A stretch of DNA of 16,364 bases from Chloroflexota bacterium (GTDB taxonomy: Bacteria; Chloroflexota; Anaerolineae; Anaerolineales; Villigracilaceae): assembly GCA_021796315.1 (NCBI GenBank), contig JAJYOH010000069.1:1-16364 (forward strand), written 5' to 3'. The notes under the pieces were generated by a model. It saw only the letters and a program-made list of their open reading frames with translations, searched no databases and was not told the DNA's origin. How positions within the stretch are numbered: the first letter of the stretch is position 1; each line of letters starts with the position of its first letter. Shown here one piece after another: positions 3,740 to 7,790 of the stretch. The position numbers and the translations under genes are program-made.

Positions 3740-5143
3740 TTACTTGGATCTTTGTTTTCGTCCGACCTTGCCGTGAAAGGCTGGGGCGGTGATGCCGATG
3801 ATCCTGCACAAATGCGCATCGAGCAAACGCGAGCGAATGCGCGCATCCAGTTCTTCGAGCGCGTCTGCCGCGATGGTGATGACCGTTGGCAGTTCGGCGT
3901 TGTAGCGGTAGTTGAAGAGTTGATAAAGTTTTTCGCGCACCCAGGGCGTCATGGATTGTGTGCCGAGATCGTCAAGTAAAAGCAATGGGGCGGTGCGAAT
4001 CTCATCGAAGCGATGATCGAACGTGGTTGCGCTATTCGGGCTGAAAGTGGCGCGCAAATGGTCGAGCAGGTCGGGAACCATCACAAACAGCGGCGGGTCG
4101 CCCAGTCCGGCGCGGTGATTTGCAATAGCGGCGGCGAGATGAGTCTTTCCACAGGCGTAATCACCGGTCAGCACCAGCCATCCGCGCGGACGCTGCGAAA
4201 AATTCTGCGCGACCTCGAATGCGTCCTTCAAAGATTTAAGTGCGGGCGCTTGCATGTCCTCATCTTTTCGAAGCGAAAAACTTTCAAACGTTTTATTCGA
4301 TAAAAGATCGAGTGATGATAATTCGGGATGACCCGCGTCAGCCATCGGGCGGCGGAAGTCGGGGGCATTAATTTTGGTTTGTGTGACCAGTTCCGGGTCC
4401 GAAAGACGCGAACGGATTCGAGCTTCGATCTCATCGAGCGCGAGATTCGTTGTTACCACCGTCGGCAGTTTATTGATGTAACGATAATTGACGATCTGGA
4501 ATAATTTTTCCTGTGCCCAGCCGGTGGCATTCTGTGTGCCGAAATCATCCAGCACCAAAAGTTTTGCGTTGCGGATTTCCTCGAAACGCTGCTCGAAGGT
4601 TGTGTCTTCGCTGTCGTATGAAAAACGCAGAGTGTCCAAAAGATCAGGCACCGTCAAAAATAAAGTGGGCACGCCCATGCCGACCGCAAAATTCGCGACT
4701 GCCGCAGCCAGGTGAGTCTTGCCGCATCCGTAACCGCCCTGCAATAAAAGCCAGCCGTTCAAACTTTGCGCGTAATGCCGCGCCTGATTGAAAGCCATTT
4801 CAAGCGAGGTGGCGTGCATCTCGCCCAGCCCTTTGCGTCCGCGCGGCTTGAAGCTTTCAAAAGTTAAATCTTTTAATTCATCGAGATGACTCAACGCGAA
4901 CAAACGCTCGCGCACGGCGTTGGTCACATTGACATGGCGGCAGACACAAACTTGAAGTTTGCCAAAATCGGGATGACCGACCGGAACATCGGAACGTAAA
5001 TAACCCGCGCCGTGGCAGTGCGGGCAGTTCGGGTCACCGGGCAGGTCGTGAACGATCTCAACCGCCGGTGAATTTTTTGATCTTGTCTTCGACGTTGCGC
5101 TGGCGAGATTTTTTATCGTCTCGTCTATTTTGCTTTTCGCCAC
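3740..5143 (-). CDS. DnaC/DnaI-like helicase loader with two tandem AAA+ domains
   Basis: The 467-aa protein has an N-terminal zinc-finger-like segment (Cys40, Cys43, Cys66, Cys68) followed by two complete copies of an IstB/DnaC-type AAA+ ATPase. Copy 1 has TFESF (94), Walker A GGYGCGKT (136-143), Walker B LLVLDD (195-200) and sensor-1-like TTN (231-233). Copy 2 has TFESF (285), Walker A GDYACGKT (327-334), Walker B LLLLDD (387-392) and TIA where TTN would be. The offset is 191-192 residues throughout, so the duplication covers the linker as well as the fold. Known loaders such as B. subtilis DnaI have one such domain and place the DnaB hexamer on DNA. The GTG start at 5143 has a good GGAAGGA and overlaps the DnaD-like gene by 86 bp. 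The role is inferred from its place next to dnaB. Confidence 0.85.
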   Translation of the reverse strand: MAKSKIDETIKNLASATSKTRSKNSPAVEIVHDLPGDPNCPHCHGAGYLRSDVPVGHPDFGKLQVCVCRHVNVTNAVRERLFALSHLDELKDLTFESFKPRGRKGLGEMHATSLEMAFNQARHYAQSLNGWLLLQGGYGCGKTHLAAAVANFAVGMGVPTLFLTVPDLLDTLRFSYDSEDTTFEQRFEEIRNAKLLVLDDFGTQNATGWAQEKLFQIVNYRYINKLPTVVTTNLALDEIEARIRSRLSDPELVTQTKINAPDFRRPMADAGHPELSSLDLLSNKTFESFSLRKDEDMQAPALKSLKDAFEVAQNFSQRPRGWLVLTGDYACGKTHLAAAIANHRAGLGDPPLFVMVPDLLDHLRATFSPNSATTFDHRFDEIRTAPLLLLDDLGTQSMTPWVREKLYQLFNYRYNAELPTVITIAADALEELDARIRSRLLDAHLCRIIGITAPAFHGKVGRKQRSK

Positions 5144-5717
5144 GGCCTTCTTCCTTCCAACGCTTCAAAATTGCTTCGGCGTATTTCCAATTGCGTTTGT
5201 TATTCGTCACTGCCAATTGAATTGCTTCGGCGATCCATTCGGGTTGATAAATTTCTTCGGCATCTTTCAATGCGTCCGCGATCAATGGCGTGAGCGGGCC
5301 GATATTTTCTTCGTACAACTTGAAAACATTCGGACGTTCCATCGGCGCCGCCGACAAAACTTTTGCGGACTCGCGCCAATTGCCTTTTGCGAACGCCTCG
5401 GATGCGGCGCGTCCGCGCGGGGAATTGAGAAAATAAAATACATCCGCTTCGTGCTGTGACTTTATCAGGCTTCCGCGCTGGACGGCTTTTGCAACGCCCG
5501 AGGCGACCTCGTCCGCAGACAGGCCCAAATCTTTTGCGTCAAAATCCGTCTGGCATAACGCGCGGAACGGACCGTCCATGTGTTCGAGCCGCCACAGAAA
5601 ATATGCGGTCACCTTCAACTCGTCCGCGTCTTTGATTTCATTCAACAACCGATGAAAAAAAGAATCGGGGAGTTGGGTGAAAGTTTCTGAGTCGGTAAAG
5701 CCTTTAAATTTAACCAT
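5058..5717 (-). CDS. DnaD-domain primosomal protein
   Basis: This 219-aa protein looks like a short DnaD relative. Residues about 11-100 resemble a winged-helix region. Residues about 130-191 match the DnaD/DnaB_2 domain: NVFKLYEENIGPLTP, Trp161, then NWKYAEAILKRWKEEG, the typical Y-xx-IL-xx-W motif. The last 30 residues are highly basic, a likely DNA-contact tail. In Firmicutes, DnaD helps recruit the helicase and its loader to origins and restart sites, and here it lies between dnaB and the loader gene. The start at 5717 (MVKFKGF) is preferred over an in-frame start at 5741, which would lie inside the repeat; GGTGA lies 7 bases before 5717. Phage-type replication proteins share this domain, but no phage genes are nearby. 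Confidence 0.82.
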   Translation of the reverse strand: MVKFKGFTDSETFTQLPDSFFHRLLNEIKDADELKVTAYFLWRLEHMDGPFRALCQTDFDAKDLGLSADEVASGVAKAVQRGSLIKSQHEADVFYFLNSPRGRAASEAFAKGNWRESAKVLSAAPMERPNVFKLYEENIGPLTPLIADALKDAEEIYQPEWIAEAIQLAVTNNKRNWKYAEAILKRWKEEGRGEKQNRRDDKKSRQRNVEDKIKKFTGG

Positions 5718-5725
5718 AATAATTT

Positions 5726-5804
5726 CACCACAAAGGCACAAAGGTCACAGAGATTTCTTTGTATCCACAAAGAAGAACTTTGTGTTCTCTGTGTCTCTGT
5801 GGTG
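5726..5804. repeat. 79-bp CACCACA palindromic repeat between dnaB and the DnaD-like gene
   Basis: The element runs from CACCAC (5726-5731) to GTGGTG (5799-5804). Its halves, each read inward, give CACCACA-AAG-GCACA-AAG-GTCACAGAG and CACCACA-GAG-ACACA-GAG-AACACAAAG, an imperfect inverted repeat with an internal 8-9 base rhythm. It occupies the gap between the dnaB stop (5809) and the start of the next gene in the operon. Its terminal GGTG, on the minus strand, forms part of the likely ribosome-binding site of that gene. From memory, similar 'CACCACAGAGACACAGAG' repeats are common in diverse bacterial genomes. Confidence 0.8.
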
Positions 5805-5808
5805 CATT

Positions 5809-7188
5809 TTACTGATTCGGATTGAACATCTTCGTCGCGGCATTCTCGAACTTTGCCAGCGCATTGCGGAAGACCAGTTCCACACTGCCGACCGGCCCAT
5901 TACGATGTTTCGCGATGATGATCTCGGCCACATTCTGCTTGACCGTATCTTTCTCGTACTGGTCGGGACGGTAAATGAACATGACGATGTCGCTATCTTG
6001 TTCCAAAGATCCCGATTCTCTCAAGTCCGAAAGGACGGGACGTTTGTCCGAACGTTGTTCGACGGCGCGACTCAATTGCGCGGCGGCAATGACCGGCACA
6101 TCCAGTTCACGCGCCATGACTTTGAGATTGCGTGAAATATACGAAACCTCCTGTACGCGATTGTCAGTGTGCGTGTCGCCGCCCATCAACTGGAGATAAT
6201 CAACGATGACAAGATCGATGTGATGTTCGAGATGCAGGCGTCGGCACTTTGTCCGCAGTTGGAGCGGCGTGATGGCGGGCGTATCATCGAGGAAAATATG
6301 CGTGTCAGACATGACTTCGATGGCGTGTGTGAACAACGGCCATTCGTTTTCCTGCAATTTTCCGGTGCGGAGTCTTTGCGAATCGATTCCTGTTTCCTGC
6401 GCGATCAAACGCTGAACGACCTGCTCGTTCGACATTTCGAGCGAAAAGATCGCCACATGTTTTTTGTGAGTAAGCGCAGCGTTCTTCGCAATCGAAAGCA
6501 GGAAACCTGTCTTGCCCTGGCCCGGACGGCCAGCGATGATGAGCAAATCAGATGGCTGCAAGCCGCTCAACATTTTATCGAGATCGACGAAGCCGGTCGG
6601 GACGCCGTAAATTTCCTCGTCGCGTTTGGCGAGGTCATCGATGCGGTCGTAGTATTCGCTCAATACGGCGGAGATCGGTTGAACGTCGTGTTTGAGGCGG
6701 CGCTCGCTCACGTTGAAGACAGCTTTTTCGGCCTCGTCCATTACGTGGTCGATCGTCGAGCCTTCGTTGTACGCAATCGAAGCGATCGAGTTGGCGGCGT
6801 TGATCATCTTGCGTCGGATCGAATGGCTTTCAACGATGCGTCCGTACGATTCGGCATTGATCGAAGTTGGAACTTGATTGACAAGCGAAGTCAAAAACGC
6901 AGGGCCGCCAATTTCATTGAGTTGATTTTTTCGGTCAAGCTCTTCTGTCAGGGTCAGCAGGTCGACCGGAATGCGCTGCTCATGCAGGCTGGTGAAGGCC
7001 TGCCAGATCCATTGATGGCGATGAATATAAAAATCGTCGGCCTGCAAAAATTGGGCGACGTCATAATAAACTTCGGGGTTAATAAGAACCGCCCCTACGA
7101 CGGCTTCTTCGGCTTCTCGGCTGTGCGGGACTGCCGAAGGACTTTGAGCAGTGGGGGCGATTTCTTCTGGCGGCAGATAATCGGTCAT
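5809..7188 (-). CDS. dnaB: Replicative DNA helicase DnaB
   Basis: The 459-aa protein is a full-length DnaB, the hexameric 5'-3' helicase that unwinds DNA at the fork. The N-terminal primase-interacting domain starts at SREAEEAVVGAVL (23-35). The RecA-like ATPase domain has VPTGF-DLD (196-204), Walker A GRPGQGKT (220-227), SLEMS (249-253), Walker B LVIVDYLQL (326-334), QLSR (371-374), LSDLRESGSLEQDSD (386-400) and an arginine-finger region KHRNGPVG (427-434). No intein interrupts the Walker A region. The ATG overlaps the TGA of the upstream gene by 4 bases, suggesting translational coupling. The DnaD-like and loader-like genes follow. Confidence 0.97.
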   Translation of the reverse strand: MTDYLPPEEIAPTAQSPSAVPHSREAEEAVVGAVLINPEVYYDVAQFLQADDFYIHRHQWIWQAFTSLHEQRIPVDLLTLTEELDRKNQLNEIGGPAFLTSLVNQVPTSINAESYGRIVESHSIRRKMINAANSIASIAYNEGSTIDHVMDEAEKAVFNVSERRLKHDVQPISAVLSEYYDRIDDLAKRDEEIYGVPTGFVDLDKMLSGLQPSDLLIIAGRPGQGKTGFLLSIAKNAALTHKKHVAIFSLEMSNEQVVQRLIAQETGIDSQRLRTGKLQENEWPLFTHAIEVMSDTHIFLDDTPAITPLQLRTKCRRLHLEHHIDLVIVDYLQLMGGDTHTDNRVQEVSYISRNLKVMARELDVPVIAAAQLSRAVEQRSDKRPVLSDLRESGSLEQDSDIVMFIYRPDQYEKDTVKQNVAEIIIAKHRNGPVGSVELVFRNALAKFENAATKMFNPNQ

Positions 7189-7790
7189 ATTTTCTTGGGC
7201 TTGTCTTTATCGTCGTCCTCGGGCTTGTCTTTATCTTTGCCTTTGCCTTTGTCGTCGAGTTTATCGAGATCGAGCTTTCCGAGAAAATCTTCGAAGACGG
7301 ATAAACGGTCGCTGCTGACTTCGCCAACAGGAGCAGCTCGCGTCGGGCCGGACCCTTGAGCGGGCGCCGCGCCGGATGCTTCCATGTCATCCTCAGGCTT
7401 GATCTCGGCCGTCTTCATTACATTTTCGTCCACCAGGATCGGAACGTGTGCGCGGACAGCCAGCGCGATCGCATCGGATGTGCGCGAGTCGATTGTGATT
7501 TCCTTGCCATCCAGATCGGCAATAATGTTTCCGTAAAAAATATCTTCCTTGAGCGAAACGATCTCGATCCGTTTGATCTTGGCATTGAAGGCAGTGAAAA
7601 CGTTTTTGAGGAGATCGTGAGTCAATGGGCGGGAGGTTTCCACTTCCTGCAAAGCCACTGTGATCGCCTCGGCTTCGTAGGGCCCGACCCAGATGGGAAG
7701 AAAACGGTCAGCGCCGACTTCGCGCAAAATTACCAGCCGGTGCGGCGCCATTAAATTAACACGGACACTATCTATCGTCACTTCTATCAT
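7185..7790 (-). CDS. Bifunctional nuclease (BFN/DUF151) domain protein with charged tail
   Basis: Residues 1 to about 130 match the BFN/DUF151 fold: VRVNLMAPHRLVILREV, LPIWVGPYEAEAI, SRPLTHDLL (53-61), IDSRTSDAIALAVR (100-113) and VPILVDENVM. Family members have been reported to degrade DNA and RNA, but the physiological role is poorly defined. After a linker rich in Ala, Gly and Pro, residues 160-175 look helical, and the last 25 are almost entirely Lys, Asp and Pro. That tail is encoded by repetitive DNA: GGGCTTGTCTTTATC on the plus strand occurs at 7197-7211 and 7221-7235. The ATG has GGAG 5 bases upstream. As the first gene of the operon with dnaB, it may be linked to replication, but that is association only. 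Confidence 0.85.
   Translation of the reverse strand: MIEVTIDSVRVNLMAPHRLVILREVGADRFLPIWVGPYEAEAITVALQEVETSRPLTHDLLKNVFTAFNAKIKRIEIVSLKEDIFYGNIIADLDGKEITIDSRTSDAIALAVRAHVPILVDENVMKTAEIKPEDDMEASGAAPAQGSGPTRAAPVGEVSSDRLSVFEDFLGKLDLDKLDDKGKGKDKDKPEDDDKDKPKKI

Follow-up and report, generated by a model that had tools for sequence, protein, structure and literature searches.

In the window, i.e., the whole 16,364-nucleotide stretch of Chloroflexota DNA analyzed here, a minus-strand open reading frame encodes a zinc-finger-like N-terminus followed by two full AAA+ domains of the DnaC/DnaI type, D1 and D2 (Table 1). The sequence-only reading had claimed such a tandem duplication behind a single zinc-finger-like segment, and this architecture is confirmed: the D1-to-D2 spacings of Walker A (191 residues), Walker B (192 residues) and the TFESF segment (residues 94 and 285, 191 apart) were all reproduced, and the two domains are identical at 95 of 182 positions (52%; E = 1e-61 in a single BLASTP comparison), far beyond chance. 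The reading we favor, and regard as moderately probable, is that the resident DnaB loader of Anaerolineae-type Chloroflexota is a covalent AAA+ dimer, whose modules would be neighbors within a single ring or spiral, with three chains per DnaB hexamer, a catalytic D1 and a structural D2.

Table 1. Features of the two-domain loader gene and of the adjoining genes, in window positions.
Feature	Position	Strand	Basis or remark
Two-domain (tandem AAA+) helicase loader, 467 aa, GTG start	3740..5143	-	ORF, motifs, family matches, D1/D2 BLASTP
N-terminal CxxC...CxC zinc-finger-like segment (C40, C43, C66, C68)	4937..5038	-	cysteines unchanged in all 68 rows of alignment A2
AAA+ domain 1 (D1), residues 92-266, all checked catalytic residues present	4346..4870	-	
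D1 Walker A GGYGCGKT (136-143)	4715..4738	-	
D1 Walker B LLVLDD (195-200; D199, D200)	4544..4561	-	
D1 sensor I Asn233 (= E. coli DnaC Asn203)	4445..4447	-	profile alignment with DnaC; 125/125
D1 arginine-finger helix RIRSR (R242, R246)	4406..4420	-	finger/coupler assigned by motif
D1 sensor II Arg264 (= DnaC Arg237)	4352..4354	-	profile alignment; 125/125
AAA+ domain 2 (D2), residues 283-458, sensor I and sensor II lost	3770..4297	-	
D2 Walker A GDYACGKT (327-334)	4142..4165	-	
D2 Walker B LLLLDD (387-392; D391, D392)	3968..3985	-	
D2 sensor I position, Ala426 (lost)	3866..3868	-	profile alignment; Asn in 2/124
D2 arginine-finger helix RIRSR (R435, R439)	3827..3841	-	R439 position kept in 119/124
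D2 sensor II position, His457 (lost)	3773..3775	-	profile alignment; Arg in 46/123
DnaD-domain protein (co-loader-like)	5058..5741	-	PF07261, TIGR01446
DnaB replicative helicase	5809..7188	-	TIGR00665, 567.5 bits
Bifunctional nuclease domain (BFN) protein, upstream of dnaB, same strand	7185..7790	-	PF02577

According to the window ORFs and their family profiles, the minus strand reads, head to tail, BFN nuclease-like gene, dnaB, dnaD-domain gene and loader, the immediate neighbors of the latter being (by Pfam) the DnaD-domain protein on one side and a ZIP-like protein on the other. Frame 1 of the plus strand over 3740..5143 contains many stops. The GTG start is backed by a SKIDETIK-like N-terminus in most rows of alignment A1; the database prediction for the same gene (P0012, 395 aa) begins at residue 73 and thereby loses the cysteines. 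An 86-bp overlap (5058-5143) between the dnaD-like ORF and the conserved loader start suggests coupled translation of the two. Elsewhere on the minus strand of the window, a nicotinate phosphoribosyltransferase-like and an isochorismatase/nicotinamidase-like gene stand side by side (286-1629 and 1733-2743), an odd NAD-salvage-like pair whose NCBIfam scores fall below cut-off.

Two stretches of the protein match Pfam PF01695 (IstB_IS21; 105.8 bits vs. a cut-off of 24.1) and NCBIfam PRK08116 (218.5 bits vs. 189), while NCBIfam TIGR00362 (DnaA) stays below its cut-off (75.7 bits vs. 343.9). The nearest solved chains by sequence in the PDB are those of DnaI, DnaC and other helicase loaders, and the loader chains among the PDB matches listed contain one matching stretch each, unlike the two-domain window protein; to our knowledge, described DnaC/DnaI-type loaders have a single AAA+ domain per chain. 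Across 301 genomes of the phylum searched for both the loader (strong matches of either form) and DciA, the former was found in 183, the latter in 97, both in none and neither in 21, so that DciA occurs in 97 of the 118 genomes without a strong loader match; the DciA model itself matched 7 of 14 control genomes. Because strong loader matches and DciA never co-occur, the two-domain protein is very probably the chromosomal helicase loader. This exclusivity agrees with the replacement rule of Brezellec et al. (2016; PMC5109545), whose accessible text states that dna[CI] replaces dciA and describes a resident dna[CI] in Chloroflexi as a single case. Around 150 two-domain loci, some of which end at contig edges, DnaB-like and DnaD-like ORFs are both near in 128, a DnaD-like ORF only in 16, DnaB only in 3 and neither in 3. 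Thus, the designation as a helicase loader with a duplicated AAA+ domain, originally made from the letters of the window, is now backed by family matches, by dnaB and dnaD-like neighbors and by DciA exclusivity. The 21 genomes with neither a strong loader match nor DciA (e.g., G222, G234 and G288) may be incomplete or may use another loading system.

The two-domain form is not confined to the window. The best 120 of 7999 scored database relatives are 395-478 aa long and 71-92% identical to the window protein (100% for its own entry), and their named organisms are Chloroflexota or Anaerolineae. A class sample of 199 genomes, taken from the class of the Anaerolineaceae genome G001 (from L048), contained a loader match in 198, with E <= 7.1e-78 in 176; strong-match loci opened in 35 of those 176 genomes (L084-L113 and L212-L216) were two-domain in all 35 cases, and the genomes outside these 176 consisted of 14 distant-branch single-domain loaders, 1 fragment and 8 weak or missing matches. 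Dehalococcoidia make up the other main two-domain group. In other Chloroflexota, single-domain loaders were found in 46 of 60 regions, chosen to cover both forms, and most of these 46 also score for the N-terminal segment. Lineage mapping, which had been proposed along with the original claim, places the two-domain form mainly in Anaerolineae and Dehalococcoidia and a single-domain form in other Chloroflexota. The 310 loci with a matching ORF, many of which repeat one gene and most of which are best matches per search, comprise 231 two-domain and 79 one-domain cases, the latter including DnaA and IstB cross-matches. The 14 Anaerolineae-class genomes with a distant single-domain loader instead (L218-L231) represent a possible loader replacement within the class; reversion to one domain is not supported for them, as their branches in the tree are distant.

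Two less favorable views of the gene itself have to be weighed against these data. Misassembly can create tandem repeats, and the sequence-only reading had named split genes joined by an assembly error as one finding that would overturn it; all relatives opened proved to be either two-domain genes or single-domain loaders, with no split halves among them. Since two domains are present in each of the 80 best among 566 genome relatives (titled as Chloroflexota), and also in the locus L173 of genome G296, which equals P0122 of Candidatus Dehalogenimonas loeffleri over its length and belongs to a genome in a single contig of 1,772,240 bases (1.77 Mb), an assembly error or accidental fusion of two genes is practically negligible as an explanation, the more so as D1 and D2 of one protein have a median identity of 45% and fall mostly into separate tree groups. 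It is also very improbable, if slightly less so, that the protein is an IstB-like transposon or phage helper rather than a chromosomal loader. Its best Pfam name is indeed IstB_IS21, and a single-domain relative in G293 appears mobile; IstB, however, the helper ATPase of IS21 transposition, has one AAA+ domain, and the window protein scores below the NCBIfam cut-off for it (IS21_help_AAA, 125.9 vs. 200 bits). No istA transposase adjoins the loader, no transposase was detected by Pfam among the 13 window ORFs scanned, and one scan of viral contigs returned only 3 distant relatives (31-33% identical), all of which, together with the dnaB and dnaD-like neighborhood and the DciA exclusivity, argues for the chromosomal loader. 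The G293 relative (L207, 1423-3280), an additional loader of the single-domain form, has a comparable N-terminus rich in cysteines; it adjoins a possible replication protein, perhaps on a mobile element, and is a candidate for the kind of source from which the loader gene was domesticated.

The two ATP sites of the chain are unequal. For site mapping, E. coli DnaC was added to a profile alignment of all domains; the sensor II assignments rest on that alignment, as a three-sequence alignment of DnaC, D1 and D2 left the sensor II end unaligned. Among 125 distinct Anaerolineae-type proteins, D1 has the Walker A lysine, both sensors and the arginine at R246 without exception (125 of 125 each). In D2, the Walker A lysine (124/125) and the R439 position (119/124) are retained as well, whereas sensor I is present in only 2/124 and sensor II in 46/123. 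Among single-domain loaders, the corresponding counts are 45/46 for sensor I and 46/46 for sensor II. In an unguided column comparison, R264, D262, T232 and N233 belong to the 18 positions at which D2 is most relaxed. The mean entropies in that comparison differ little (1.22 vs. 1.42 bits), and of 66 columns conserved in single-domain loaders the Anaerolineae-type D1 keeps 58 and D2 57. It is D1, not D2, that deviates at the position of DnaC Phe146 (Tyr in 95/131) and beside it, and D1 is not simply the conserved domain. Both domains largely retain the positions of the DnaC ssDNA tetrad (K143, F146, S177, Y179), with R, F/Y, T/S and W there (in the window protein, R, Y or F, T and W), a pattern consistent with a single DNA channel that the two modules both face. 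In the profile alignment, R246 lies opposite the coupler Arg216 of DnaC, not the finger Arg220; its designation as a finger rests on the RxxSR motif.

In E. coli DnaC, according to the accessible text of PMC8213410, losing sensor I or sensor II abolishes ATPase activity. With its sensors lost and its nucleotide-binding and ssDNA positions kept, the window protein's D2 is expected to bind ATP and ssDNA yet hydrolyze poorly. The initial guess of one active and one structural site per chain has thereby gained sequence support for the Anaerolineae type. In the Dehalococcoidia type (B-type; 19 pairs, 12 of whose 19 genomes recur in the class of G296, the other 7 being grouped by the N-domain tree), sensor II is reversed, i.e., present in D1 in 0/16 and in D2 in 16/18, and sensor I is patchy (D1 9/19, D2 6/19). 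A sub-branch with L104, L137, L194 and L195 has a longer linker before D2 and a lysine at the D2 arginine-finger position; L194 moreover has Gly in place of the second acid of the D2 Walker B motif, a further step in the decay of this domain.

As to one or two duplications, AU tests rejected none of the arrangements compared (all N rows as one side, p 0.38; all C rows, p 0.39; all A-type rows together, p 0.32). The B-type N and C rows group together with support 82/89, or 92/88 with three single-domain rows inside. In a larger tree, the B-type N rows form one side (97/98) and the B-type C rows fall elsewhere; L130_C and L165_C are placed with A-type N rows, and N or C rows enclose some of the single-domain rows.

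Two AAA+ domains are not the upper limit for loader chains. Of 360 proteins, i.e., the best 120 from each of three database searches (the third with a four-domain query), 355 are two-domain, including P0358 with its second domain split in the count; P0257 has three AAA+ domains, P0138, P0254 and P0344 have four, and P0243 (1224 aa) has six. Pfam places PF01695 six times in P0243 and four times in P0138. Since the domains of P0243 are 36-77% identical to one another, they are not simple assembly copies. Copy number differs between close relatives (P0243/P0344 and P0254/P0257), P0243 corresponding to P0344 with two extra domains after the first and matching domains 82-96% identical. All five multi-domain chains end in a domain that stands apart, with 36-44% identity to the rest, and it is the type before it that has been multiplied. 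These chains are known from database proteins alone (sources jgi, ena and lgn): the 310 loci of the genome samples include no chain of more than two domains, and the matches listed for samples of 199, 301, 400, 56 and 245 genomes include no open frame longer than 700 aa. A viral origin of the multi-domain forms was considered and rejected, the viral-contig scans having returned one relative of P0243 (L311, 41% identical) and none of P0254. All AAA+ domains of P0254 and P0257 have Gly in place of the second Walker B acid, with Tyr or Val at the position of the arginine coupler, and this loader possibly never hydrolyzes ATP. Taken together with the absence of sensor I from both domains in 10 of the 19 Dehalococcoidia-type pairs, the Walker B substitutions imply that hydrolysis may be dispensable there.

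Structure prediction yielded confident domains for both the window protein (AlphaFold, 68-row alignment; pTM 0.52) and the four-domain P0344 (33 rows; pTM 0.36), the linkers having pLDDT <50, and no domain arrangement was taken from either model. Single-domain fold comparison retrieved DnaA, DnaC, IstB and DnaI; whole-length matches have an rmsd of 6-20 A and include p97-type chains at poor rmsd, and the latter were not taken as evidence of a double tier. Helicase loading, N-terminal docking, one-ring geometry, the 3:6 stoichiometry and an inactive D2 are what we infer from the preceding observations. In the proposed mechanism, the one zinc-finger-like N-terminus of each chain presumably docks on DnaB, and D1 and D2 would be adjacent in a single cracked ring or spiral that encircles ssDNA, so that three chains give the six modules for which DnaC needs six chains. 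D1 modules would hydrolyze ATP; D2 modules would bind nucleotide and ssDNA and offer their arginine-finger face to the neighboring D1, with slow or absent hydrolysis of their own, resulting in alternating catalytic and structural sites. The side-by-side placement is proposed because D2 keeps the ssDNA positions and because a six-module chain exists, P0243 being most simply read as a one-chain ring. Three chains per hexamer is plausible by analogy with the Bacillus subtilis-type DnaI, an AAA+ loader that likewise has a zinc-binding N-terminal domain, works with DnaD and, according to the accessible text of PMC3791466, attaches to DnaB in the form of three dimers, within each of which the two monomers differ in how they contact the helicase. 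DnaI differs in having one AAA+ domain per chain, non-covalent dimers and identical ATP sites; the covalent dimer would hard-wire a DnaI-like trimer of dimers with alternating firing and holding sites.

Other geometries are conceivable. The DnaB hexamer has six binding sites, and each chain has a single N-terminal segment, so that six chains could bind as in DnaC, with D1 as the working ring and D2, its sensors lost, as a second tier or an outer regulatory or DNA-holding layer. The top Foldseek rows are double-tier AAA+ proteins (Cdc48/p97), but at TMq <= 0.40 and rmsd 11-20 A; D2 keeps ssDNA-contact and R439 positions for which an outer layer has no obvious need, and a six-domain chain is a bad fit to tiers. 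We therefore consider the six-chain arrangement unlikely. Still less likely, in our estimate, is that D1 and D2 face each other as an IstB-like clamp, an idea prompted by IstB being a close paralogue of DnaC/I that assembles from dimers as a pentamer of dimers (PMC11208146, in its accessible part). According to the same text, the IstB dimer contact runs through the N-terminal region, of which the present chain has only one copy, and tandem chains of 3, 4 and 6 domains are ill-suited to a two-fold clamp. The 3:6 ring has a difficulty of its own in the four-domain chains P0138, P0254 and P0344, which do not divide six; the covalent dimer with three chains per hexamer nevertheless remains our preferred reading.

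With respect to known systems, DnaC of E. coli shares the Walker A/B, sensor I/II and ssDNA tetrad positions that map onto D1; it differs by one AAA+ domain, six identical subunits and no cysteine segment, and window D2 is without its sensors I and II. The Chloroflexi dna[CI] of PMC5109545 is likewise a domesticated loader gene that replaces DciA; the accessible text of that report gives its presence only and makes no mention of tandem domains, asymmetric sites or multi-domain chains. As to the original statement that no loader of this form is known, a resident dna[CI] in Chloroflexi was on record since 2016, and the listings, with the opening lines of abstracts, from an open-access library (subscription papers being mostly outside that scope) included no loader with two or more AAA+ domains, characterized or otherwise. 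New here are the sensor asymmetry between D1 and D2, the opposite loss of sensor II in the Dehalococcoidia type, and the chains with three, four and six AAA+ domains. Dynein and midasin carry several AAA+ modules per chain, which form one ring of catalytic and non-catalytic sites. Their likeness to the six-module chain is one of layout and by analogy only, as they are eukaryotic and of unrelated function.

Tentatively, and with somewhat less than even confidence, these observations may be joined in one picture, in which Chloroflexota weld loader subunits covalently into rings of AAA+ modules, the number per chain rising from one to two (in whole lineages) and further to three, four or six; the six-module chain would be a one-chain ring in which catalytic and structural sites follow each other in a set order, and duplication and sensor loss may have occurred independently in Anaerolineae and Dehalococcoidia, with opposite polarity of sensor II. 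Loader architecture itself differs between large groups of one phylum, to which Dehalogenimonas and numerous uncultured lineages belong. The number of ATP sites that a loader requires, and whether all must fire, is hard to test with the six identical subunits of DnaC. In a natural covalent dimer that pairs an intact with a sensor-less site, the alternation would be fixed genetically, making site roles and the order of DnaB ring opening directly testable, and a six-module chain would allow each of the six positions to be changed singly. If the proposed picture is true, dynein and midasin would have in this six-module chain a bacterial parallel as far as layout is concerned.
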